A stretch of DNA of 40,149 nt. Source: Catenulispora sp. GTDB lineage: Bacteria > Actinomycetota > Actinomycetes > Streptomycetales > Catenulisporaceae. The stretch is taken from the NCBI GenBank assembly GCA_013362315.1, contig JABFWL010000084.1:1-40149 (forward strand), given 5' to 3'. The notes under the pieces were generated by a model, which had not been told where the DNA came from, did no database searches, and saw nothing but the letters and a program-made list of their open reading frames with translations. The translations under genes and the position numbers were made by a program. Of this stretch, positions 11,653 through 40,149 are shown piece after piece; positions within the stretch are counted from its first letter, which is position 1, and each line of letters starts with the position of its first letter.

Positions 11653-12146
11653 GGCGTATCTGAGAAGTACTGCGGTAGGTCGGTGTGGTTGTCCACGACC
11701 GGGGTGGCGGCGTTGCCGGCGGTCCAGACGATCAGTGCCGAGTCGAACTCCTCCCCGTCGGAGAGCACCACGTGGCCGTCCACGGCGGACAGGAGCTGCG
11801 TGTCCAGATGCACGCGCCCGCCGTGGCGTTCCAGGAAGCGCACGACCCACCTCCCTGGTTTGTCGCGGACCTCGGGCAGGATGCGGCCGCGGGCCTGCAC
11901 CAGGTGGAAGGACAGTTCGTCGCGGCTCAGCTCCGGATATCGCTTCAGCATCGCGTTCGCCAGCGATAGCAGTTCTGCGAATCCCTCGACCCCGGCGAAT
12001 CCGCCACCCACGAACGTCACCGTCATCAGCCGCTGCCGTGCGAGGCCCGGCGGTAAAGATGCCGCCTGGTCGAAGGCGGTCATCAGCCGGTCGCGGATGG
12101 CCACGGCCTCCTCTACATGCTTCAGGCCGATCGCCTCAGGTGATGT
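11649..12146 (-). pseudogene. Remnant of a type II NADH dehydrogenase (NDH-2)
   Basis: The frame reads SPEAIGLKHVEEAVAIRDRL, then TVTFVGGGFAGVEGFAEL, and later LIVWTAGNAATPVV. These are the middle parts of an NDH-2/FAD-dependent pyridine-nucleotide oxidoreductase, including the NADH-binding GGGFAGVE Rossmann motif. The N-terminal FAD-binding third and the C-terminal membrane-anchoring third are absent, and no start codon fits the left boundary. About 165 residues remain of a normal length near 400-450. It is a doubly truncated pseudogene. Its intact state would transfer electrons from NADH to quinone. Confidence 0.8.
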
Positions 12147-12168
12147 GACGCGCGGCGCACTCGCGACG

Positions 12169-12195
12169 CGTCACAGACCGCCCGCGAACCCGGTC
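12169..12195 (+). promoter_or_regulatory. ECF41-like promoter in front of the flavoprotein gene
   Basis: CGTCACA at 12169-12175 and GGTC at 12192-12195 are separated by exactly 16 bases, 34 bases before the flavoprotein ATG. The published ECF41 consensus is about TGTCACA-N16-CGTC, so this differs at one base in each box. A near copy with the same spacing stands in front of the ferritin-like gene at 13961, and an ECF41 sigma factor is encoded 3.4 kb downstream. The assignment is inferred from this match. Confidence 0.5.
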
Positions 12196-12229
12196 TTCAT
12201 GGGTGACACACCGAACGATCGGAGTAACC

Positions 12230-13960
12230 ATGGCCGCCATCGAACGTCAAATCTCCACCACCGTGCTGGTCATCGGCACTGGCGGCGCCGGCTTGCGCGC
12301 CGCGATCGAGCTGGCTGAGGCGGGCGTGGACGTCCTCGCGGTCGGCAAACGCGCCAAGGCCGACGCCCACACCTCCCTCGCCGCCGGCGGCATCAACGCC
12401 GCCCTGGCGACGATGGATCCCGAGGACAGCTGGCAGCAGCACGCCGCCGACACGCTCAAGGAGAGCTACCTGCTCGGCGATCCGCGCACCGCCGAGATCG
12501 TCGCCCGGGGGGCCGCCCGCGGCATCGAAGACCTGGAACGCTACGGCATGGCCTTCGCCCGCGAGGCGGACGGACGCATCTCCCAGCGTTTCTTCGGCGC
12601 GCACAAGTACCGGCGCACCGCCTTCGCCGGCGACTACACAGGGCTGGAGATCCAGCGGGCCCTGCTGCGGCGCACCGAGCAGTTGCACATTCCGACGCTC
12701 GACGACGTGTACGTCACCCGCCTGCTGACCCACGACGGCGCCGTCTTCGGCGCGTACGGATTCGGCCTGACGGACGGCACCCGGTACCTGATCCATGCCG
12801 ACGCCGTGATCCTCGCCGCCGGCGGCCACACCCGGATCTGGCGGCGCACGTCGTCGCGGCGCGATGAGAACACCGGCGACTCCTTCCGCCTGGCGGTGGA
12901 AGCCGGGGCCCGGCTCCGGGATCCGGAGCTGGTGCAGTTCCACCCTTCCGGCATCATCGAGCCGGAGAATGCGGCTGGCACGTTGGTCAGCGAGGCGGCA
13001 CGCGGCGAGGGTGGCATCCTGCTCAACGGGCTGGGAGAGCGGTTCATGCAGCGCTATGACCCGCAGCGCATGGAGCTGTCCACCCGTGACCGGGTCGCCC
13101 TGGCCTCATATACGGAGATCAAGCAGGGCCGCGGCACGCCGCACGGCGGGGTGTGGCTCGACGTCTCCCACCTTCCCCGGCAGACCATCATGAGCAGGCT
13201 GCCGCGGGTCTACCAGACCCTGATGGACCTGCAGATGCTGGACATCACCCGGGAGCCGATCGAGGTCGCGCCCACCGCGCACTACTCCATGGGCGGGGTC
13301 TGGGTACGTCCCGAGGACCACAGCACCGATGTGCGTGGCCTGTACGCGATCGGCGAGGCCTCCAGCGGCCTGCACGGGGCGAACCGCCTCGGCGGCAACA
13401 GCCTGATCGAGCTGCTGGTCTACGGCCGGCTCACCGGCCAGGCGGCCGCCGCCTACTCCCGGTCGCTGACCGCGCAGCCGCGCTCGGCAGTGGCGCCGGC
13501 CCAGGCCCGGGCCGAGATCGACGGGCTCCTGGCCGCGGACGGACCCGAGAACGTCCGGGCGCTGCAACGCGCCGTCCGCGACACCATGACCGAACACGCC
13601 GGCGTCGTCCGCGACGAAAACGGACTACGCCAGGGGCTGGCGGACCTGGAGCAGATCGAGAAGCGGATGGAGCACGTCGGGATCCACCCCGACATCGCCG
13701 GCTACCAGGACCTCGCGCACGCCTTCGACCTGAAGTCGGCGGCGCTGGCCGCCCGCGCGACGCTGGAGGCGGCGCTCGAACGCCGGGAGACCCGCGGCTG
13801 CCACAACCGCGCCGACTACCCGGCCCTCGACCCCGCATTCCAGGTCAACCTGGTGTGGTCGCCGACCGCGGGCGTCACCCGGGAGCCGGTCGCCGCCATC
13901 CCAGAGGAGATCGCCTCCCTCATGGAGGAGGTCTCCACCGAGGGCAAGCTCGCCGAATAG
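12230..13960 (+). CDS. FrdA/SdhA-type flavoprotein oxidoreductase
   Basis: This 576-residue protein starts at the ATG at 12230 with GGAG just upstream. The FAD-binding VLVIGTGGAGLRAAIELAEA lies at residues 12-31. AHTSLAAGGIN contains H47, at the position of the histidine that binds FAD covalently in SdhA/FrdA; L-aspartate oxidases lack it. Substrate-site elements follow: QFHPSG, ELSTRDRVALAS, and HYSMGG, then NRLGGNSLIELLVYGR, which closes the FAD site. The C-terminal helical domain ends in an ETRGCHNRADYP block. The family interconverts succinate and fumarate or oxidises aspartate. No iron-sulfur or membrane-anchor subunit is adjacent, so a solitary soluble enzyme is likely. L-aspartate oxidase is the main alternative. 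Confidence 0.85.
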   Translation: MAAIERQISTTVLVIGTGGAGLRAAIELAEAGVDVLAVGKRAKADAHTSLAAGGINAALATMDPEDSWQQHAADTLKESYLLGDPRTAEIVARGAARGIEDLERYGMAFAREADGRISQRFFGAHKYRRTAFAGDYTGLEIQRALLRRTEQLHIPTLDDVYVTRLLTHDGAVFGAYGFGLTDGTRYLIHADAVILAAGGHTRIWRRTSSRRDENTGDSFRLAVEAGARLRDPELVQFHPSGIIEPENAAGTLVSEAARGEGGILLNGLGERFMQRYDPQRMELSTRDRVALASYTEIKQGRGTPHGGVWLDVSHLPRQTIMSRLPRVYQTLMDLQMLDITREPIEVAPTAHYSMGGVWVRPEDHSTDVRGLYAIGEASSGLHGANRLGGNSLIELLVYGRLTGQAAAAYSRSLTAQPRSAVAPAQARAEIDGLLAADGPENVRALQRAVRDTMTEHAGVVRDENGLRQGLADLEQIEKRMEHVGIHPDIAGYQDLAHAFDLKSAALAARATLEAALERRETRGCHNRADYPALDPAFQVNLVWSPTAGVTREPVAAIPEEIASLMEEVSTEGKLAE

Positions 13961-13987
13961 CGTCACAAACGGCGGCCCTGCCCGGTC
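13961..13987 (+). promoter_or_regulatory. ECF41-like promoter in front of the ferritin-like gene
   Basis: CGTCACA at 13961-13967 begins the base after the flavoprotein stop codon; GGTC follows at 13984-13987 after a 16-base spacer. Both boxes and the spacing are identical to the site at 12169, while the spacers differ, which argues for selection on the boxes. The start codon of the ferritin-like gene is 40 bases downstream of the second box. Confidence 0.5.
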
Positions 13988-14027: not shown

Positions 14028-15074
14028 ATGGACGCGCACGACAAGCCCGCCATCACCACGCTCGAAGACCTGCGTCAGCACCTGCAATGGGCCATCGAGC
14101 TGGAGCACGCCACCATTCCCCCTTATATGTGCGCGCTGTACTCGCTGGACAAAGACCGCAACCCCGAAGCCGCGCAGGTGGTCGGGACCGTGCTGGCCGA
14201 GGAGATGCTGCACCTCGCGCTGGCTGCGAACCTGCTGAACGCCGTCGGCGGCGCGCCGAAGCTCGACGCCCCGAAGCTGCTGCCGCCCTACCCGCATCCG
14301 CTCCCCCACGGCGACCGTTCCATCGAGATCGACCTGGTCCCCTTCGGCCCGCAGGCTCTCGACCTGTTCCTGCGCATCGAGCAGCCGGCCAGCGCTGACG
14401 CACCGCCGCAGGCCGACGGCTACCAGACCATCGGGCAGTTCTACGCCGCGATCGAAGCCGGTCTGCGTTGGCTGTGTGACGAGCTGGGCGAACCCGCGGT
14501 GTTCTGCGGCGCTCCAGATCGGCAGATCGGCGAGATGCACCTGCATGGCGGAGGCGGCACTGTCATCCCGGTCCACGACTTGAAGACTGCATTGGCCGCA
14601 CTGGCAGAGATCGTGGAACAGGGCGAGGGCGCGGCACGGACCGCTGTTTGGGACGGCGACGTGGACGTGTTCCACCCCGAGCGCGAGGAAGTCGCCCACT
14701 TCTACCGTTTCCAAGAACTGCGGCTCGGCCGCCGCTACCAGGCTGGCGACACCCCGCAGTCCGGGCCGACCGGCGAGCCGATCGCGGTCGACCTCGACGG
14801 CGTACAGCCGATGCGGCCGAATCCGCGCACCGCCGACTATCCGGAAGGCAGCGCCATCCGGATCGCCCAAGAGGAGTTCAACCAGACCTACAGCCTCCTG
14901 CTATACCAGCTGGAACAGGCCTTCAACGGCAGCCCCGGCGAGATGAAGCAGGCCGTGCGCGCCATGTTCCAGCTGCGAGCACAGGCCACGGCTCTCATGG
15001 CCATGCCCACCGGCGACGGTCATACCTCCGCCGGCCCGACGTTCGAATACGTGCCCGCCGAGGCCAGGAACTGA
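14028..15074 (+). CDS. Ferritin-like domain protein (VioB/RebD-related, PF12902-like)
   Basis: This 348-residue protein starts at the ATG at 14028 behind a strong AGGAGG. The first helices carry the di-iron-type pattern: IELEHATIPPYMCALYSL, then AEEMLHLALAANLLNAVGG. This pattern defines the ferritin-like domain of iminophenyl-pyruvate dimer synthases (VioB, RebD) and many stand-alone relatives. A third set, EVAHFYRFQEL, is also family-typical, as is a closing helix with EEFNQTYSLLLYQLEQAFNG. The reaction of stand-alone members is not known; iron or heme-oxygen chemistry is likely. It sits between the flavoprotein and the sigma-factor genes and has its own ECF41-like promoter. Confidence 0.8.
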   Translation: MDAHDKPAITTLEDLRQHLQWAIELEHATIPPYMCALYSLDKDRNPEAAQVVGTVLAEEMLHLALAANLLNAVGGAPKLDAPKLLPPYPHPLPHGDRSIEIDLVPFGPQALDLFLRIEQPASADAPPQADGYQTIGQFYAAIEAGLRWLCDELGEPAVFCGAPDRQIGEMHLHGGGGTVIPVHDLKTALAALAEIVEQGEGAARTAVWDGDVDVFHPEREEVAHFYRFQELRLGRRYQAGDTPQSGPTGEPIAVDLDGVQPMRPNPRTADYPEGSAIRIAQEEFNQTYSLLLYQLEQAFNGSPGEMKQAVRAMFQLRAQATALMAMPTGDGHTSAGPTFEYVPAEARN

Positions 15075-15091: not shown

Positions 15092-15481
15092 GTGCGCCCC
15101 GGGGATGAGGATGTGTTCCTCCGGCTCGCTGAAGCGGGCCGGACCTCGGATGCTGCCGCCCTGCGGCGGGTCCTGACCCCGGACGTCGTCGCGATCTGTG
15201 ACAGCGGCGGGCTGATCCCGGAGCTGGCCGAGCCCGTATGCGGGGTGGACGACGTCGCCATGCTCCTGCTGGCCCTGATCGGCGGCCGGCCGGACACCGA
15301 GCTGGCCATCGCGAACGTTAACGGCCGACCGGGTCTGGTGCTGCGCCGTGCCGGAAAGGCCGTCGCGGTGCTGGCCGCACCGACGGAGGGCGCACGGATC
15401 GGAACGCTGTGGATCGTGCTCAACCCGGCCAAGCTGCCCCGGTGGCACTGCGGTGACCACCGCGAGAGCCACATCACGTAG
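15092..15481 (+). CDS. Free-standing SnoaL-like domain resembling the ECF41 sigma C-terminus
   Basis: 129 residues from the GTG at 15092, 17 bases after the ferritin-like stop. The sequence FLRLAEAGRTSDAAALRRVL leads into DVVAICDSGG and ends WIVLNPAKLPRW. This is the cone-shaped SnoaL/NTF2-like fold found at the C-terminus of ECF41 (SigJ-type) sigma factors, including their NPxKL motif. No sigma region 2 or 4 is encoded upstream. It matches the family C-terminal motif better than the intact sigma factor 90 bases downstream does. It could be the leftover end of a second ECF41 factor, or a functional free regulatory domain. Coding character and the clean start near the previous gene favour a translated protein. 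Confidence 0.65.
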   Translation: MRPGDEDVFLRLAEAGRTSDAAALRRVLTPDVVAICDSGGLIPELAEPVCGVDDVAMLLLALIGGRPDTELAIANVNGRPGLVLRRAGKAVAVLAAPTEGARIGTLWIVLNPAKLPRWHCGDHRESHIT

Positions 15482-15570: not shown

Positions 15571-16476
15571 GTGACTGATTCCGGCCTGGACGCCGAGCCG
15601 GGCAGCCCCGAGGAACTGGAGCAGGCCGCGGCGGTGTTCACCAGCGTGCGGCCGCGCCTGTTCGGGATCGCGTACCGCATGCTCAGCAGCGCCACCGAAG
15701 CCGAAGACCTCGTTCAGGAAGTCTGGCTGCGCTGGCAGACCACCGATCGCAGCAAGGTGGTCAACCCGGCGGCGTTCCTGGCCACGGCCACGACCCGGCT
15801 GGCCATCAACGAACTGCAGTCCGCACGGGTGCGGCGCGAGACGTACGTCGGGCCGTGGCTGCCCGAGCCGGTCGACACCAGCGCGGATCCCTACCTCGGC
15901 GCCGAGCGGGGCGAGGCGCTGGAGTTCGCGGCGCTGCTGCTGATGGAGAAGCTGACCCCGAACGAACGCGCCGCATATGTGCTGCGGGAAGCCTTCGACT
16001 ACTCCTACGCCGAAATCGCGGACATCGTGCAGTCGACCGAGCCCGCGGTGCGGCAGCTGGTGAGCAGGGCCCGCAAGCACATGACCAGCGAACGGCACAC
16101 CCCAGTGACCGCCGCCGCCCAGCAGGAGCTGCTGACCGCGTTCCTCAACGCCGCCCGCACCGGCGATATGGCCGCGTTGGAACAGCTCTTCGCGGCCGAC
16201 GTCACCAGCCTGTCCGATGGCAACGGCCGACACCAGGTCGCCCGCCGGGCAGTGGTCGGCGCGCAGGCGGTCGCGAAGTTCCTGACGGCGATGTCCTGGT
16301 TCTGGGAGGGCGTCGAGACGCGGCTCACGACCATGAACGGGCAGACCTGCGCCGTCCTGGTGGCGGGCGGCACCGTGTACGGCCTGCTCGCGATCGACGC
16401 CTCGGACGACGGCATCGCGAAGGTGCTGTGGATGGTCAACCCGGAGAAGAACGCGGAGGTCTCCATCCCCGTCTGA
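15571..16476 (+). CDS. sigJ: ECF41-group (SigJ-type) RNA polymerase sigma factor
   Basis: This 301-residue protein starts at the GTG at 15571. Sigma region 2 covers about residues 25-95 (FGIAYRMLSSATEAEDLVQE followed by VWLRWQ). Region 4 covers about 125-180 (NERAAYVLREAFDYSYAEIA and a helix-turn-helix ending RARKHM). A fused SnoaL-like domain of about 120 residues completes the protein. ECF41 factors lack an anti-sigma partner and are controlled by this fused domain. Here the conserved DGGGK motif is DGNGR and the NPDKL-like motif is NPEKN, so control may be altered. The gene normally sits beside its target oxidoreductase; the gene in that place (16615) is broken. Confidence 0.88.
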   Translation: MTDSGLDAEPGSPEELEQAAAVFTSVRPRLFGIAYRMLSSATEAEDLVQEVWLRWQTTDRSKVVNPAAFLATATTRLAINELQSARVRRETYVGPWLPEPVDTSADPYLGAERGEALEFAALLLMEKLTPNERAAYVLREAFDYSYAEIADIVQSTEPAVRQLVSRARKHMTSERHTPVTAAAQQELLTAFLNAARTGDMAALEQLFAADVTSLSDGNGRHQVARRAVVGAQAVAKFLTAMSWFWEGVETRLTTMNGQTCAVLVAGGTVYGLLAIDASDDGIAKVLWMVNPEKNAEVSIPV

Positions 16477-16614: not shown

Positions 16615-16983
16615 ATGAAGATGGCAGTCATCGGCGGCACCGGCCTGATCGGCTCGCAGGTTGTCGAGCTCTTGAGGGCGCAGGGGCACGACGCCGCGCC
16701 GCACGCCACCTCCACCGGCCTGGACCTGTTGAGCGGCCGCGGCCTGCCAGAGGCGGTCACCGGGGCCGAGGTCGTGGTCAACCTGACCAACTCACCCACC
16801 TTCGACGACGCCTCGCCCGCGTTCTTCCAGACCACGATGGGCAACCTGCTGGACGCCGCGAAGACCGCCGGCACCGGCCATGTGGTCATCCTCTCCGTCG
16901 TCGGTGTCGACCAGGTACCCGACCTGGTCTAATACCGCGCGAAGGTGCTGCAGGAGGATCTCCTCAAGGCCGGAGGCCTGCGG
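16615..16983 (+). pseudogene. NmrA-like NAD(P)-binding SDR, inactivated by a nonsense mutation and truncation
   Basis: The frame opens MKMAVIGGTGLIGSQVVELL, the NAD(P) site of an atypical SDR (NmrA/SDR_a5-like), and runs to VVGVDQVPDLV before a TAA at 16930-16932. The same frame then continues YRAKVLQEDLLKAGG, which is the family sequence (normally xYYRAKxxxE). A single TAC-to-TAA change therefore explains the stop. About 17 codons later homology ends where transposase sequence begins on the other strand. Intact relatives are about 250-290 residues. ECF41 sigma genes are usually paired with such an oxidoreductase, so this is probably the sigma factor's former target gene. Confidence 0.85.
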
Positions 16984-34005: not shown

Positions 34006-36951
34006 TCACGGCGGCCTCGAGTCCCTTCTATATCTATCTCCGCCTTCACCACCGGCCGACACGCACAGTTCCACGGGCTGGACGTCCACCTCGCCGCGGA
34101 TCGCGGCCTCGATCCCCTGTACCGCCGCGGCCAGAGCATCGATCGTCGCCAGGTACGGCACACCGCGCTTGACAGCTGCGGCGTGCAGCGTCGGGCCGTC
34201 CCACGTCGACTCCCGGCCGCCCCGTCCGGCGGACACGGTGTTCACGATCAGGTCCACCTCGCCGTCCCGGATCCGGTCCACGACACCGGGTTCCCGGTCG
34301 GTCTCGACGCCGACACCGTGGCGCCGCAGGACCGAGGCGGTCTCCGCGGTCGCCCGGATCTCGAAGCCCAGGTTGGCCAGCTTCTTGAGCGGGAAGACCG
34401 CGGCCCGCTTGTCCCGGTCCGCGATCGAGGCAAGCACCCGCCCGCCGAGCGGCAGCGGCCCGTGCGCCGCCGCCCGCGCCCTGGCGTATGCCGCGGCGAA
34501 GCTCGCACCGACGCCCATGACCTCGCCCGCGAACCGCACTCGCGGCCCGAAGGCGGTGTCGGTTCCCCAGCCGCCTGGGCCGGGAAAGCCGTCGAGCGGG
34601 AACACCGTCTCGCGCACCGCCACCGGGGCGTCCGAGCGAGGCTGCCCGTGGTCGCCGGCGGCCGGTAACAGTCCGGCGGCCCGCAGGCTCTCGATCTCCT
34701 CCCCCAGCATGATCCTTGCCGCGGCGCCGGCCAGCGGCGTCCGAGTGGCGTTGGAAAGAAACGGCAGGGTCCGGGATGCGCCCGGGTTCACCTCGAGGAC
34801 ATAGAGCGTTCCGGCGCGGAGGGCGAAACGTACGTTGAACAGGCCTCGTAGACCACTCTTCTCGGCGATCACCTCGACGGCGGCTCGGGCCCGGTCCATA
34901 TCGTCGCGGCCCACGGTCACCGGTGGTGCGGTGCACACGGGCCGGCCGAAGCGATCACCGACCGGGCCGATGTGCTCCGTCACTCCGCCGACGAACAGTT
35001 CGCGGCCGTCGTACAGCGCGTCGACGTCGAACTCGACCGAGTTCTCCAGGAATGGTTCGATCAGCACCTGTCCGCGTTCCCGGTCTGCCAGGCACGGTGC
35101 GAGCGCCTCCACGTCAAGGACGATCTCGGCATCGTCGACGCCGAACACGTCCGGCGGCCGTACCGACACCGGGTAGCCGAACCGCGCAGCGATCCGCGCC
35201 GCCTCGGGCCGGGAGCGGGCCGTGCCATACCTCGCCACGGCGTACCCCGCGGCGGTGAGAACGGTTTCGATCTCGGTCCGGTCCACAGCGGTCTGCAAGG
35301 CCGCGAACGAGGCGCCCGCGATCGGGACGCCGAACTCCTCCAACAGCCCGGCCATGCCGAGCGCCTCCCGCCCGCCCAGCTGGACGATCGCACCCGCCAC
35401 CGATCCGGCACGCCGCTCGGCGTCGACGACATCGAGCACGTGCTCCGCGGTCAGTGCCCCGAGGTAGCAGCGGTCGGCCGAAACCAGATGCGGATCGCAG
35501 CCCACTGCCACGGTCCGGTAGCCCGCCCCGGCCAGTGCGGACGCGGCCTGCGCGCAGGCGTGGTCGAAATGTTGCCCCCGATCGCCGCCGTCCGCCCCGG
35601 AGCCCACGTTGAACACGGTCGGCCGCGGGTCGGCCGCCGTATCGGGCCCCGGTTCGCGCGGTGCCGGGCCGTAGGTCGCGTACAGGTACGGGGGGTACCC
35701 CCGGAGCCGAGATGCGCAGGCGTCCACCCGATGGAATGCGGGCCGAACACCCAGCTGCCGGCGCAGCTCGCGGATCTCCCGCTCGCTGCCGGCGCGCACC
35801 CGGGCGATCCGGGCGTCGGAGAATCCGGCGGCCTTGAGGTCCCTCAGCGTGCGGGGATCCAGGGACCGGACACCGGCGGGCCGTCCGGACCGGATCTCCG
35901 ATTCCCAGATCGGTGTCGGGAACCAGGGGTCTGAGTCGCGAGAACGCCGTGCCCTCCGCAGCGCCTCCTGGAACGACCGCCCGACAGCGATGCCCCCGTC
36001 CGCGCCGGATCCGTAGGGAGTCAGGGGCCGCACCCGTACCACGACATGACCGGGCGACGGCTCGTGGAACACGTGGGCCCGGTCCGCGCCGCAGCCGGTC
36101 AACTCGGCCAGGGTGTACCCCAGGGCCAGCTCGGCGGCGATCCGCGCGAGCGGAACGCCGAGGGCCATGGAGGCGATGGCCGAGGAGCCGTCCTCGGCCG
36201 GATTCATCCCGACCACCGCCATCCGCCCGGTGCCCGGTTCGATCGCGAACCGGACGGTGCAACCGCCGTCGTTCACCCCGGCCGCGCGCGCGATCTGCAC
36301 GGCGGCGAGGCGCATAAGCCGGTATTGCCGGCCGCTGAGGGTCAGCGCGGGCGCGATCTCGACACCGTCCAGGCCGTCACCGTCGGCGGATTCGAATCTC
36401 TCGATCGAGCACACCATGACCTCGTCCACGCGGTCGCGGAGCACGCGCAGATCGAACTCCCGCCAGCCGGCGCCGACGCCGCGGCCCCGGCCGTGGTCGT
36501 CGCCGAGTTCGAGCCCGAGTTCGACACTCAGCCCGAGCCCGAGCCCGCCGACGATCCGCCGGATCCGCTCGCCGTCCGCCGCGACCCCGATGGTGGCGAT
36601 CGTGGCGCCGATCAGCTCGACCCCGTGCTCGTCCAGCAGGCCCGCCTCGTCCAGCGTGACGGCCGCGCCGAGCCCGGCCGGTCCGCCCACGGTGGCCAGC
36701 CAGGCATCGGGCCGCTCGATCTCGATCACCCGCGCGACGGCCTCAGGCGTGACCGGCTCGGGGTAGGTCGCGTCGGCGGAATCGGCCATCACCGTCGCCG
36801 GGTCGGGGTTGACCAGGACGACCCGGACTCCCTGGCGTCGCAGCGCCCGGCACGCCTGGACACCGGCCTGGTCGAACTCCCGGCCCCGCCCGGCCTGGAC
36901 CGGACCGGACCCGGTGACCAGGACGGACGAGATGTCGGCTCGCCTGGGCAT
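34006..36951 (-). CDS. Divergent stand-alone carbamoyl-phosphate-synthetase large-subunit-like protein (CarB-like)
   Basis: This 981-residue protein has the full CarB order: pre-ATP-grasp 1 (SSVLVTGSGPVQAGRGREFD, residue 8 on), ATP-grasp 1 to about 285, oligomerisation helices (AAGFSDARIARVRAGSEREI, 374-393), pre-ATP-grasp 2 (about 445), ATP-grasp 2 (about 560-760) and an MGS-like allosteric domain (from about 835, ending in VNTVSAGRGG and AAVKRG). True CarB is about 1070-1110. About 45 residues with the glycine loop are missing near residues 140-160. EMNPR is GMNPA at 248-252 and the metal-ligand Gln is Arg at 234; in the second half the same Gln is Arg (708) and EVNPR is EVNPG (720-724). 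No carA lies nearby. The ATG starts one base after the polyketide-synthase stop, so translation is coupled. Confidence 0.88.
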   Translation of the reverse strand: MPRRADISSVLVTGSGPVQAGRGREFDQAGVQACRALRRQGVRVVLVNPDPATVMADSADATYPEPVTPEAVARVIEIERPDAWLATVGGPAGLGAAVTLDEAGLLDEHGVELIGATIATIGVAADGERIRRIVGGLGLGLSVELGLELGDDHGRGRGVGAGWREFDLRVLRDRVDEVMVCSIERFESADGDGLDGVEIAPALTLSGRQYRLMRLAAVQIARAAGVNDGGCTVRFAIEPGTGRMAVVGMNPAEDGSSAIASMALGVPLARIAAELALGYTLAELTGCGADRAHVFHEPSPGHVVVRVRPLTPYGSGADGGIAVGRSFQEALRRARRSRDSDPWFPTPIWESEIRSGRPAGVRSLDPRTLRDLKAAGFSDARIARVRAGSEREIRELRRQLGVRPAFHRVDACASRLRGYPPYLYATYGPAPREPGPDTAADPRPTVFNVGSGADGGDRGQHFDHACAQAASALAGAGYRTVAVGCDPHLVSADRCYLGALTAEHVLDVVDAERRAGSVAGAIVQLGGREALGMAGLLEEFGVPIAGASFAALQTAVDRTEIETVLTAAGYAVARYGTARSRPEAARIAARFGYPVSVRPPDVFGVDDAEIVLDVEALAPCLADRERGQVLIEPFLENSVEFDVDALYDGRELFVGGVTEHIGPVGDRFGRPVCTAPPVTVGRDDMDRARAAVEVIAEKSGLRGLFNVRFALRAGTLYVLEVNPGASRTLPFLSNATRTPLAGAAARIMLGEEIESLRAAGLLPAAGDHGQPRSDAPVAVRETVFPLDGFPGPGGWGTDTAFGPRVRFAGEVMGVGASFAAAYARARAAAHGPLPLGGRVLASIADRDKRAAVFPLKKLANLGFEIRATAETASVLRRHGVGVETDREPGVVDRIRDGEVDLIVNTVSAGRGGRESTWDGPTLHAAAVKRGVPYLATIDALAAAVQGIEAAIRGEVDVQPVELCVSAGGEGGDRYRRDSRPP

Positions 36952-36952
36952 G

Positions 36953-39900
36953 CTAGGCGTCCAGAACCGGCAGCAGCGCCTTGACCACTTGGCTCAGCGT
37001 CGGCTCCTGCAGCATGTTGAGGTGGTCGTTGTCCAGCTCCACCAGCTGCATCTCGGTGCCGAAGTACTCGTGCCAGGGAGTGACGTAGTCGTAGTCCTTC
37101 ATGATGTTCGACGGCGGCCAGTAGATCGCGCTCGACTTGCCGGTGAAGCCGTCGAGCGCCTTGAAGAACAGGACGTCCGAGGCGTCGAAGTAGCGCATCT
37201 TGTACATCTGGTACAGGCCGGCCGAGTGGTCCGCGCAGACCGTTCCGCCACGGAGGAAGTGGTAGATGTCCTCGACCGCGATGCGCTTGTTCCCGCGCTC
37301 CTTGGCGATCCAGGCCAGTTCAAGGAGCAGCAGCTCACGCGGCAGGTGCTCGAGTTCCTCCTGGCGGATCGCCAGCTGGGGGTTGGCTTCCAGGTCGAGG
37401 AAGACGTTCGCCATGTAGAAGGGGATGAAGTCGTAGTCGTAGGTCTCCTTGTGCAGATCGAAGACCTTCTGCGTAGCCGGGTAGGTGTCGAACAGAACCA
37501 GGTGTTTGATGGTCTCGCCGGCTTCGTGGAGCCGGCGGGCCAGCTCGATCGCGGTGAGCCCGCCGAAGGAGTACCCGCCGATGACGTAGGGCCCATGCGG
37601 CTGTACCGCGCGGATGCAGGACAGGTAGGTGTCGAGCATGTCGTCCATCCGCTGCGGCATCGAGACGCCGTCGGTCCCCCGCGTCTGGAACGCGTAGACG
37701 GGATAGTCGGGCCCGAGCCCGACACTCAGGTTGGCCAGCGACGCCGCGTAGCCGTCCGCTCCCGGCACCCAGAACGAGGTCTGCTTGGAACCGACGCCGT
37801 TGAGCGGCACGATCTCCGGCGGCAACCGGTCCGGCAGCTCCCGCTGCTTCGGCCGGGCCGGGCGATGCGTCCGCGTGCTCGGCGGCGGGACCACGGCCGG
37901 GCGTTCCGTTCGGGGACGCGCCGGCTCAGGTACGGGAACGCCGCCGGAGACCAGCGTCCCAATGTAAGCCGCGAGGCGACGGACCGTGGGGTGGTCGGCG
38001 AGTGCCGCGAACGGCACCCGGCTGCCGTAGATCTGCTGAAGCGCCTGGGTGATGCCGACGCTGAGCAGCGAGTCGACTCCGAGTTCCCGGAAGGGGCGGT
38101 CGGGGTCGATGTCCTCCTCGGGGATCCTCAGCCGCTCGCTGAACAGCTCCAGGATCCGGTAGTACTCGTCCGAGTCGTCCGACGGCGCTGCCTCCACGAC
38201 GGGTGCGACGGGTGCGACAGCCGCGGCAGGTTCGACGAGCTCGGTGAGTCCGGCGGCGAACGGGCGCGCGGTGTGCACCGGGGTCTGCTTCCGGGTCGGC
38301 GCCTGGAACCAGAATCGGTCGAGGGCGAAGGGATAGGTGGGCAGCGGCACCCGAGCCGGGCTGCCCTCGGCCGCCGGCCACTGGTCGACGCCGAATCCGC
38401 CGACCCAAGCCGCGGCCAACACCCGTGGGTCGTCTTCGCCCTCGGACGGCGCCGTGCGGGCCGGCCCGGGCCGGGGACTGCCGCGGAACACGGGTTCCTC
38501 GTAGACGCCGCTGTCGCACGCCGACCGCAACCGCTCGCGCAGCACCTCCAGGCTCGGCGCCACGACGGCCAGCCGCTCGGCGAACTCCTCTCGGCCCTCG
38601 CGCAGGGTGAACGCGACATCGTCGGCGCGGAGGGGGGCCGCGGACCCGCGCTCGCGGTCCTCGAGCCACGCCAGGAAGTTCCGGACGGTGCGATCCAACG
38701 CGGTCGCGGTCTTGGCGGAGAACAGGAACACCCGGTCTCCAGGCGCCTCGTCCTCCCGCACGACAGAGCGTGGGCTCTCCTCGACGACCACGTGCGCGTT
38801 CACACCGCCGAATCCGAATGCGCTCACGCCGCCACGACGCGGCGCGGGCCTGCCGTCGGCTCCGGCCGGCTCCGGCCAGGGCACTGTCCGGTCGGCGATG
38901 AAGAAGGGCCCGCCCTCCAGGTCCACATAGGGATTGAGGGCTTGGAAATGCGCCATCCCGGGGATGGTCCGGTGGCCGAGCGAGAGCACCAGCTTGATCA
39001 GACCGGCCATACCCGAGGCCGGTTCCAGATGCCCTACGTTGGTCTTGGCCGAGCCCAGACCGGTGCGCGGCTCGGTCGGCACGGCGGCGCCCCGTTCGCG
39101 ATACAGCCGGCGGAACGCCTGCTTGATGCCGCTCACCTCGACCGGATCGCCGAGCTCAGTGGCGGTGCCGTGCATCTCGAGGTAGCCGATGGTTCCCGGG
39201 TCGACGGCGGCGTCGCGGACCGCGTCCACGATGACGTCGGCTTGCGCCTCCGCCCGCGGTGCCGTCAGCGAAGCGGCACGGCCGCCGTGGTTCACCGCGC
39301 TACCCCGGAGCACGGCATACACATGGTCCCCGTCAGAGCGCGCCTTGTTCAGGGGCTTGAGCACCAGCACGCCGGCCCCCTCGCCCTTGACGAACCCGTT
39401 CGCGTCGCGGTCCAGGGTGCGGGTCGCCCCGTCCGCCGACATGACGCCGAGCAGCGCATCGGCCACCGCCGAGTACGGCGCCAGGTTCAGCCCGATGCCG
39501 CCGGCCACGGCCACTTCGCTCTCGCCCTCGCGCAGCGAGCGGATCGCCCGGTGTACGGCGACCAGCGAACTGGAGCAGGCGGTGTTGACCGGCTCGCTGG
39601 GCCCCCGCAGGTCGAGCAGATAGGAGATCCGGTTGAGGGCGATCGCGTGCTCATTGCCGAGGCCGGCATAGGTGTCGTAGACGCCAGCCTCGTGCAGGAG
39701 GTGCTGGTAGTCGCTGAACTGGATGCCGGCGAACAGCCCGACCCGGCGTCCGGCCAGGTGCGAGGGTCGGTGTCCGGCGTCCTCCAGCGCCGCCCACACC
39801 AGTTGCAGCAGGATCCGCTGCTGCGGATCCATCATCGCGGCCTCGGCGGCGGTGATCCCGAAGAAGGCCGCGTCGAAGGCGTCCACATCGTCGATGAAGC

Positions 39901-40149
39901 CGCCCCAGCGCAGCGCCGACTGCTGATCCGGCGGCAGCACGCCTGCCTGCTCGCGCCAGTCCCACCGGTCGGCCGGGACCTCGGTCACGAGGTTGCGGCA
40001 GTCCCGCAGGTTCTCCCAGTAGCGGAGCCGGTCCGCCGATCCCGGGAACCGGGCGCTCATGCCGATGACGGCGATCGGCTCCGGACCGCCCGGCGGCGGC
40101 GTCAGATCGTCCAGCGCGGTGGGCTGAGGTTCCAGCGCGGTGGGCTGAG
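36953..40149 (-). CDS. Trans-AT polyketide synthase, terminal KS-ACP-TE module (partial, 5' end outside window)
   Basis: 1064 residues are visible up to the TAG at 36953-36955. A proline-rich linker leads to a ketosynthase (about 25-455): active cysteine C191 in VNTACSSS, H326 in EMHGTATELGD, H373 in KTNVGHLEPASG. The post-KS segment ends in LPTYPFALDRFWF, with no acyltransferase, dehydratase or ketoreductase domain. This is the mark of trans-AT synthases, which receive extender units from a separate AT. An ACP follows (S693 in ELGVDSLLSV), then a type I thioesterase with S860 (GGYSFGG), D887 (LFDTYPA) and H1042 (NDHLNML). It releases the finished chain. The CarB-like gene is coupled downstream. 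Upstream modules lie beyond the window. Confidence 0.93.
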   Translation of the reverse strand, partial: QPTALEPQPTALDDLTPPPGGPEPIAVIGMSARFPGSADRLRYWENLRDCRNLVTEVPADRWDWREQAGVLPPDQQSALRWGGFIDDVDAFDAAFFGITAAEAAMMDPQQRILLQLVWAALEDAGHRPSHLAGRRVGLFAGIQFSDYQHLLHEAGVYDTYAGLGNEHAIALNRISYLLDLRGPSEPVNTACSSSLVAVHRAIRSLREGESEVAVAGGIGLNLAPYSAVADALLGVMSADGATRTLDRDANGFVKGEGAGVLVLKPLNKARSDGDHVYAVLRGSAVNHGGRAASLTAPRAEAQADVIVDAVRDAAVDPGTIGYLEMHGTATELGDPVEVSGIKQAFRRLYRERGAAVPTEPRTGLGSAKTNVGHLEPASGMAGLIKLVLSLGHRTIPGMAHFQALNPYVDLEGGPFFIADRTVPWPEPAGADGRPAPRRGGVSAFGFGGVNAHVVVEESPRSVVREDEAPGDRVFLFSAKTATALDRTVRNFLAWLEDRERGSAAPLRADDVAFTLREGREEFAERLAVVAPSLEVLRERLRSACDSGVYEEPVFRGSPRPGPARTAPSEGEDDPRVLAAAWVGGFGVDQWPAAEGSPARVPLPTYPFALDRFWFQAPTRKQTPVHTARPFAAGLTELVEPAAAVAPVAPVVEAAPSDDSDEYYRILELFSERLRIPEEDIDPDRPFRELGVDSLLSVGITQALQQIYGSRVPFAALADHPTVRRLAAYIGTLVSGGVPVPEPARPRTERPAVVPPPSTRTHRPARPKQRELPDRLPPEIVPLNGVGSKQTSFWVPGADGYAASLANLSVGLGPDYPVYAFQTRGTDGVSMPQRMDDMLDTYLSCIRAVQPHGPYVIGGYSFGGLTAIELARRLHEAGETIKHLVLFDTYPATQKVFDLHKETYDYDFIPFYMANVFLDLEANPQLAIRQEELEHLPRELLLLELAWIAKERGNKRIAVEDIYHFLRGGTVCADHSAGLYQMYKMRYFDASDVLFFKALDGFTGKSSAIYWPPSNIMKDYDYVTPWHEYFGTEMQLVELDNDHLNMLQEPTLSQVVKALLPVLDA
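40111..40149 (-). repeat. 21-bp-period direct repeat in the polyketide-synthase linker
   Basis: CCAGCGCGGTGGGCTGAG occurs at 40111-40128 and again at 40132-40149, at the very edge of the window. Read on the coding strand it encodes QPTALEP followed by QPTAL, a seven-residue Pro/Thr/Ala linker repeat before the ketosynthase. More copies may follow beyond the edge. Confidence 0.85.

Follow-up and report, generated by a model that had tools for sequence, protein, structure and literature searches.

Working from left to right through the cluster, we see that the central part of the window—the whole stretch of Catenulispora DNA analysed here, 40,149 nucleotides long—holds genes for an SdhA/FrdA-like FAD flavoprotein, a ferritin-like protein and an ECF41 sigma factor, with a small additional frame, here called orphC, between the last two (Table 1). 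The set is bordered on one side by the remains of a FAD/NADH-dehydrogenase-like (NDH) gene and on the other by a pseudogene of an NmrA/SDR oxidoreductase; orphC and these two relics, all parts of one conserved gene set, are additions to the list of elements drawn up in an earlier, sequence-only reading of the window. Towards the far end (34006–40060, minus strand), inspection by eye picks out a carbamoyl-phosphate-synthase-large-subunit-like gene beside a ketosynthase-like (polyketide synthase) gene that is cut by the contig end.

Table 1. Features of the cluster in the window and related features in other genomes (window positions unless a locus or contig is named)
Feature	Position	Strand	Basis or remark
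NDH-like gene, fragment	11673–12185	−	residues 111–280 of 449; cut off at P1
P1, predicted ECF41-type promoter of the flavoprotein gene	12169–12195	+	motif; matrix rank 2; orthologous sites
SdhA/FrdA-like FAD flavoprotein gene	12230–13960	+	576 aa; PF00890 2e-84; PF02910 4e-18
P2, predicted ECF41-type promoter of the ferritin-like gene	13961–13987	+	motif; matrix rank 1; orthologous sites
Ferritin-like protein gene, related to the VioB ferritin-like region	14028–15074	+	348 aa; PF12902 4e-65
orphC, free-standing ECF41 C-terminal (SnoaL/NTF2-like) domain	15092–15481	+	GTG start
ECF41 sigma factor gene	15571–16476	+	301 aa; TIGR02957; PRK09636; WLPEP linker; C-terminal extension
NmrA/SDR oxidoreductase pseudogene, usual ECF41 partner type	16615–16974	+	stop at 16930; 3′ half absent
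orphC counterparts	L055 8236–7883; L057 3610–3176; L220 5917–6279
Streptomyces islands	G390:C9:138360–227357; G138:C64:50111–102834; G146:C27:14213–71300		24–28 ECF41-type promoters

The closest NCBIfam models for the flavoprotein are TfrA and SdhA (scores below their cut-offs), and among solved chains it comes closest to subunit A of succinate dehydrogenase (PDB: 7d6v; 1e-109). The genes adjacent to it encode no Fe–S or membrane/anchor subunit; it stands alone, and the locus does not have the composition of a succinate dehydrogenase or fumarate reductase locus. Assignment as an L-aspartate oxidase was rejected, that model scoring below the SdhA/FrdA types, with all of them under their curated cut-offs. 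The ferritin-like protein gives a weak match to the VioB model, has a solved relative in 3hl1 (‘Ferritin like protein’; 3e-15) and contains the PF12902 domain, which denotes a fold family only.

Each of these genes is preceded by a copy of CGTCACA-N16-GGTC, located 34 nt (P1) and 40 nt (P2) before the respective ATG codons; the boxes and spacing are identical and the spacer sequences differ, exactly as the sequence-only reading had described. The first base of P2 directly follows the flavoprotein stop codon. P1 and P2 are the only matches in the window, with 0.32 expected by chance (spacers 14–18), and 3 of 100 shuffles of the window also reach two; the excess is thus modest when judged by window statistics alone. 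A scoring matrix derived from 187 non-redundant Streptomyces sites, the window sites not being included, ranks P2 first and P1 second in the window, the two scoring 28.6 and 28.0 bits and the next-best position 9.0. With both boxes left out of the matrix, the spacer and downstream bases still place both sites in approximately the top 0.01% of window positions. As a purine stands 10 nt after the −10 element, transcription would probably start at about 12205 (a G, 10 nt past GGTC) for P1 and at about 13997 for P2. Set against the published ECF41 promoter, TGTCACA-N16-CGTC (Wecke et al. 2012, PMC3426412), with a tolerance of one nucleotide in the spacer, the −35 element CGTCACA and the 16-nt spacer fit; the −10 is GGTC. 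The first base of the −35 is C instead of T, as it is in 11% of the sites in the Streptomyces islands described below.

The claim that the window has a single ECF sigma gene, and that it belongs to ECF41, was borne out: only the 301-residue product qualifies, and it scores above the curated cut-offs of both TIGR02957 (325.7; cut-off 323.25) and PRK09636, SigJ (279.7; cut-off 271). Sigma-70 regions 2 and 4 are present (PF04542 and PF08281), WLPEP is found in the linker between them, and the protein matches the SigJ structure 5xe7 (5e-46). The C-terminal extension includes a SnoaL-like domain of approximately 100 residues (SnoaL_2, 4e-4), in which the characteristic motifs are present but divergent (DGNGR, and an eroded NPEKN). 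No classical anti-sigma gene lies beside the sigma gene, orphC being its neighbour on one side; on the other is the SDR gene—a pseudogene here, intact in relatives—as is usual for ECF41. A promoter of the same type directly before the sigma or SDR gene of the window was considered and discarded, as there is only a −35-like AGTCACA at 15480 with no fitting −10. The genome from which the window derives (G000; assembly 82% complete) has approximately eight ECF41-type genes.

The SDR pseudogene corresponds to residues 1–120 of the 246 of a Catenulispora orthologue (72% identity) and has no ECF41 promoter upstream; orthologues at L055 and L057 do have one. The NDH fragment is 85% identical to its L055 orthologue, and in relatives the gene is intact and promoter-bearing. 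Because two genes of the regulon, the FAD oxidoreductase and the SDR, are truncated or interrupted, the cluster in the window is undergoing reduction. Elsewhere in the same genome, a GGTC-type ECF41 promoter precedes an intact NmrA/SDR gene at a contig end (L213, G000:C752, 5558–4747, minus strand), beyond which a close ECF41 paralogue may lie. The possibility that the cluster is plasmid-borne was rejected: matches are fragmentary, and the best is to an 11.9 Mb Nonomuraea replicon that is filed as a plasmid and lacks the motif.

Of the 14 Catenulisporaceae genomes, exactly five contain an orthologue of the flavoprotein, and in all five there is an adjacent ECF41 gene together with the promoter; a P1 equivalent is thus present in each of the four genomes other than that of the window. 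In G009, G005 and G008 the same genes recur in other orders and orientations, nearly every one behind its own YGTCACA-N16-[GT]GTC, and in G004, which represents another genus, the flavoprotein and sigma genes form a bare divergent pair. Eight of the 16 genome-wide matches in G009 fall within 7.6 kb. Three Catenulispora orthologues of the ferritin-like gene have a P2-type site 39–49 nt upstream, and 9 of 14 Streptomyces orthologues have one no more than 200 nt away. Across these relatives one type of promoter precedes flavoprotein, ferritin-like, SDR, FAD-oxidoreductase and cupin genes. G005 also has an unlinked GGTC-type site ahead of a cupin gene (L217:6346–6800); given this site, the regulon may extend beyond the cluster.

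When 84,980 species genomes were scanned with a flavoprotein alignment, 80 loci were returned. In 57 of the 59 that come from Streptomyces and other actinomycetes, a site lies 33–44 nt before the ATG (mode 35; 34 in the window), and the two exceptions have no ECF41 gene nearby. The other 21 orthologues, from Microbacteriaceae/Micrococcaceae (Paeniglutamicibacter and similar), encode proteins of 81–84% identity and have neither the site nor an ECF41 gene; they constitute a natural negative control.

The Streptomyces loci allow the anatomy of the promoter to be examined. Sites with [GT]GTC number 392 at a spacer of 16, as compared with one at 15, eight at 17 and one at 18, and a reversed control pattern finds two sites in the same loci, as against 394. 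At the 16-nt spacing CGTC is found at only six sites, as against the 392 with [GT]GTC, and for this reason we take the −10 of this subgroup to be [GT]GTC, usually with a C before it: a subgroup variant, to judge from these counts, that differs from the published CGTC. Downstream of the −10 come A/T-rich bases and then the purine mentioned above. In G000 itself, CGTC is the −10 box of sites that lie at or close to other ECF41 genes (contigs C608, C44 and C328).

Three Streptomyces genomes have most of their matches (28 of 40, 24 of 35 and 26 of 43) concentrated in a single segment, of 89, 53 and 57 kb, respectively—regions that we refer to as ‘islands’. Rough gene calls for the G138 island give, as promoter-linked or neighbouring genes, LtrA, cytochrome b, two OsmC proteins, ferredoxin, FAD oxidoreductase, SDRs, carboxymuconolactone decarboxylase, cupin, the flavoprotein, DUF427, hydrolases, pyruvate dehydrogenase E1, WhiB, YceI, the ferritin-like protein and ECF41 genes. 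A site lies within 400 nt of 17 of 20 NDH, 42 of 56 SDR and 19 of 22 cupin orthologues; in randomly chosen stretches of these loci the figure is 7%. Other products of the islands are regulators of the LuxR, TetR and WhiB types, and several ECF41 genes are present in each island, so that a one-to-one pairing of factors with promoter sets is uncertain there. The SCO71xx region of Streptomyces coelicolor (SCO7099–SCO7112) may be that species’ version of the island. Papers on acid shock and iModulons mention several sigma genes in SCO7099–SCO7112, and RIViT-seq in S. coelicolor found no targets for trimmed SCO7099 (PMC9205884).

We consider it probable, with good confidence in the explanation as a whole, that the window carries a reduced copy of this larger, conserved multi-promoter ECF41 regulon. 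The number of sites—two in the window, eight in 7.6 kb of G009 and 24–28 per Streptomyces island—does not describe a single-target system, and the ECF41 class probably controls far more than one gene. The sequence-only reading had proposed a small redox/iron regulon unlike the oxidoreductase genes with which ECF41 factors are commonly paired. This holds in part. The gene content of the islands points to redox chemistry and respiration as the common theme; a specific iron role finds no support, PF12902 being a fold family that also takes in VioB; the regulon is large in relatives; and the ancestral set does contain oxidoreductase genes of the usual kind, among them an NmrA-type SDR, an FAD oxidoreductase and, in Streptomyces, carboxymuconolactone decarboxylase.

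The orphC product has no sigma domains; it matches only positions 146–279 of TIGR02957 (3e-20), and by profile comparison residues 176–297 of SigJ (2e-10). Its predicted model (pLDDT 88.6) has SigG1 and SigJ among its top PDB matches, such that sequence and predicted fold both indicate a SigJ-type C-terminal domain. We rejected an ordinary SnoaL enzyme, the best profile being the ECF41 C-terminal part and a tree placing orphC with ECF41-derived partners. The domain is kept in all four Catenulispora clusters, at a different position each time, with an open frame and conserved DSGG and NP(D/A)KL motifs. In Streptomyces spinosisporus one free-standing domain lies directly behind its own ECF41-type promoter.

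Streptomyces islands encode a second ECF41-like protein (33 sequences, L103–L157; e.g. L103:15264–16103) that is probably a relative of orphC. WLPEP, which 51 of 54 canonical factors have, is found in none of the 33; region 2.3/2.4 is largely absent, the region 4 helix VRQLVSRAR has become AEPADRAR, Pfam detects sigma regions in only 10 of 28, and a predicted model falls to pLDDT 35–50 in the region 4 helix-turn-helix. NPDKL is present in all 33. In a tree of C-terminal domains, the free-standing domains and the Streptomyces partners form one clade apart from canonical domains (support 0.94–0.98), and 25 of 42 full-length loci hold both a canonical factor and a partner. The sigma factors of the four orphC-bearing Catenulispora clusters read NPEKN, NPAKN, NPEKN and NPDKI at this motif, and those of G004 and G013, which lack orphC, read NPDKL and NPEKL; an association of motif erosion with orphC is suggestive, the cases being few and related. 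As an analogy for the Streptomyces partner, with no homology claimed, we offer PhyR, which mimics a sigma factor in the general stress response of alphaproteobacteria: the partner would be a sigma-like protein that, having no promoter recognition, regulates a sigma system. PhyR differs in possessing a receiver domain and in having an anti-sigma factor as its target.

Turning to mechanism, we think it probable that P1 and P2 are recognized by a holoenzyme containing the ECF41 factor of the window or a very close paralogue, as parts of a reduced multi-promoter regulon; that both genes have ECF41-type promoters used by the local factor, as first suggested from the window, now draws good support from conservation, fixed geometry and co-occurrence. 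Transcription from P1 would yield the flavoprotein message and from P2 that of the ferritin-like protein. The gaps between the ferritin-like gene, orphC and the sigma gene are 17 nt and 89 nt, and a simple scan found no plus-strand terminator between these genes; as the sigma gene has no fitting site of its own, we prefer the reading that P2 continues through orphC into it, which would produce positive autoregulation. The regulon as a whole would serve in redox stress, and the orphC product, we propose, might act in trans on the sigma factor with the eroded C-terminal motif. Our first guess is that it does so as an anti-sigma-like regulator, since in known ECF41 factors the C-terminal extension both touches the linker and has a restraining effect (PMC8999054). 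Joining these observations, we tentatively suggest—as a possibility that we hold well short of conviction—that ECF41 regulation has been split in two: the partner, having lost promoter recognition in Streptomyces and been pared down to a bare C-terminal domain in Catenulispora, would retain the NPDKL motif that has eroded in the active sigma factor, and would work in trans as a sensor, or as an anti-sigma factor or co-activator, of a large redox regulon that includes itself.

The main rival to reading by the local factor is crosstalk, in which P1 and P2 are real ECF41-type promoters used mainly by another ECF41 paralogue, the local factor being one of several with overlapping specificity. The eight or so ECF41-type genes of the incompletely assembled genome speak for it, as do the multiple ECF41 genes in each Streptomyces island, paralogues of 72% and 77% identity in G005 and G013 that both lie beside GGTC-type promoters, and the second GGTC-type site before the SDR gene at L213. 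We nonetheless judge it unlikely, as the sites near the ECF41 genes on C608, C44 and C328 have CGTC and not GGTC, and every family genome with the flavoprotein (5/5) keeps such an ECF41 gene adjacent. That the motif is instead a transcription factor operator, or the promoter of a different ECF group, is very improbable: regulators of the LuxR, TetR and WhiB types are indeed encoded in the islands, yet the element has an asymmetric two-box form, an exact 16-nt spacing, a fixed orientation and a fixed distance to the start codon, fits the published ECF41 promoter and co-occurs with ECF41 genes. Chance matches in GC-rich DNA, to which the shuffled windows and the 17 genome-wide occurrences of the bare motif (assembly 82% complete) would lend some colour, are refuted by conservation and can be set aside with near certainty: orthologous positions in dozens of genomes carry the motif with differing spacers, the reversed pattern is almost absent from the same loci, and the bases outside the boxes also score highly.

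A separate question is whether orphC is no more than what is left, as a pseudogene, of a second ECF41 gene stripped of its sigma domains. The decay of two neighbours in the window (SDR and NDH) and the existence of longer Streptomyces paralogues with degenerate sigma parts make this a possibility to be taken seriously, albeit one that we doubt; an open frame with DSGG and NP(D/A)KL maintained at four positions in four Catenulispora clusters, the S. spinosisporus copy behind its own promoter and the confidently predicted fold all argue against it.

The sigma factor shares its architecture, WLPEP linker and SnoaL-like C-terminal extension with Ecf41Bli, Ecf41Rsp and Mycobacterium tuberculosis SigJ, and the system as a whole shares with published ECF41 examples and their COE target promoters the TGTCACA-type −35, 16-nt spacer, nearby oxidoreductase/epimerase genes and lack of a classical anti-sigma gene (PMC3426412). 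ECF41 factors are described there as generally controlling a single gene or operon (Wecke et al. 2012); here, by contrast, we see many separate target promoters, a [GT]GTC −10 instead of CGTC, targets that include an SdhA-like flavoprotein and a ferritin-like protein, and an extra free-standing C-terminal domain. In Sinorhizobium meliloti, the ECF41 factor RpoE9 likewise has an oxidoreductase-type target next to it, with a promoter motif that matches, but this is its only target (PMC6180224). The nearest solved fold to orphC is that of the SnoaL-like C-terminal domain of SigG1, an ECF56 factor of Streptomyces tsukubaensis (PMC7730460; PDB: 7qh5); SigG1 belongs to another ECF group, with another regulon, and its domain is fused, not separate.

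ECF41 is a large and poorly understood group—373 proteins in the 2012 census—that has been described in terms of control over one gene next door. The islands, in which identical promoters number up to 28, would instead represent a dense regulon, the likely function of which is redox and respiratory rewiring, and offer a route to the signal; a free-standing domain that bears NPDKL would, in addition, provide a way into the mechanism by which the fused domain exerts control over the sigma factor, a question that goes back to 2012.
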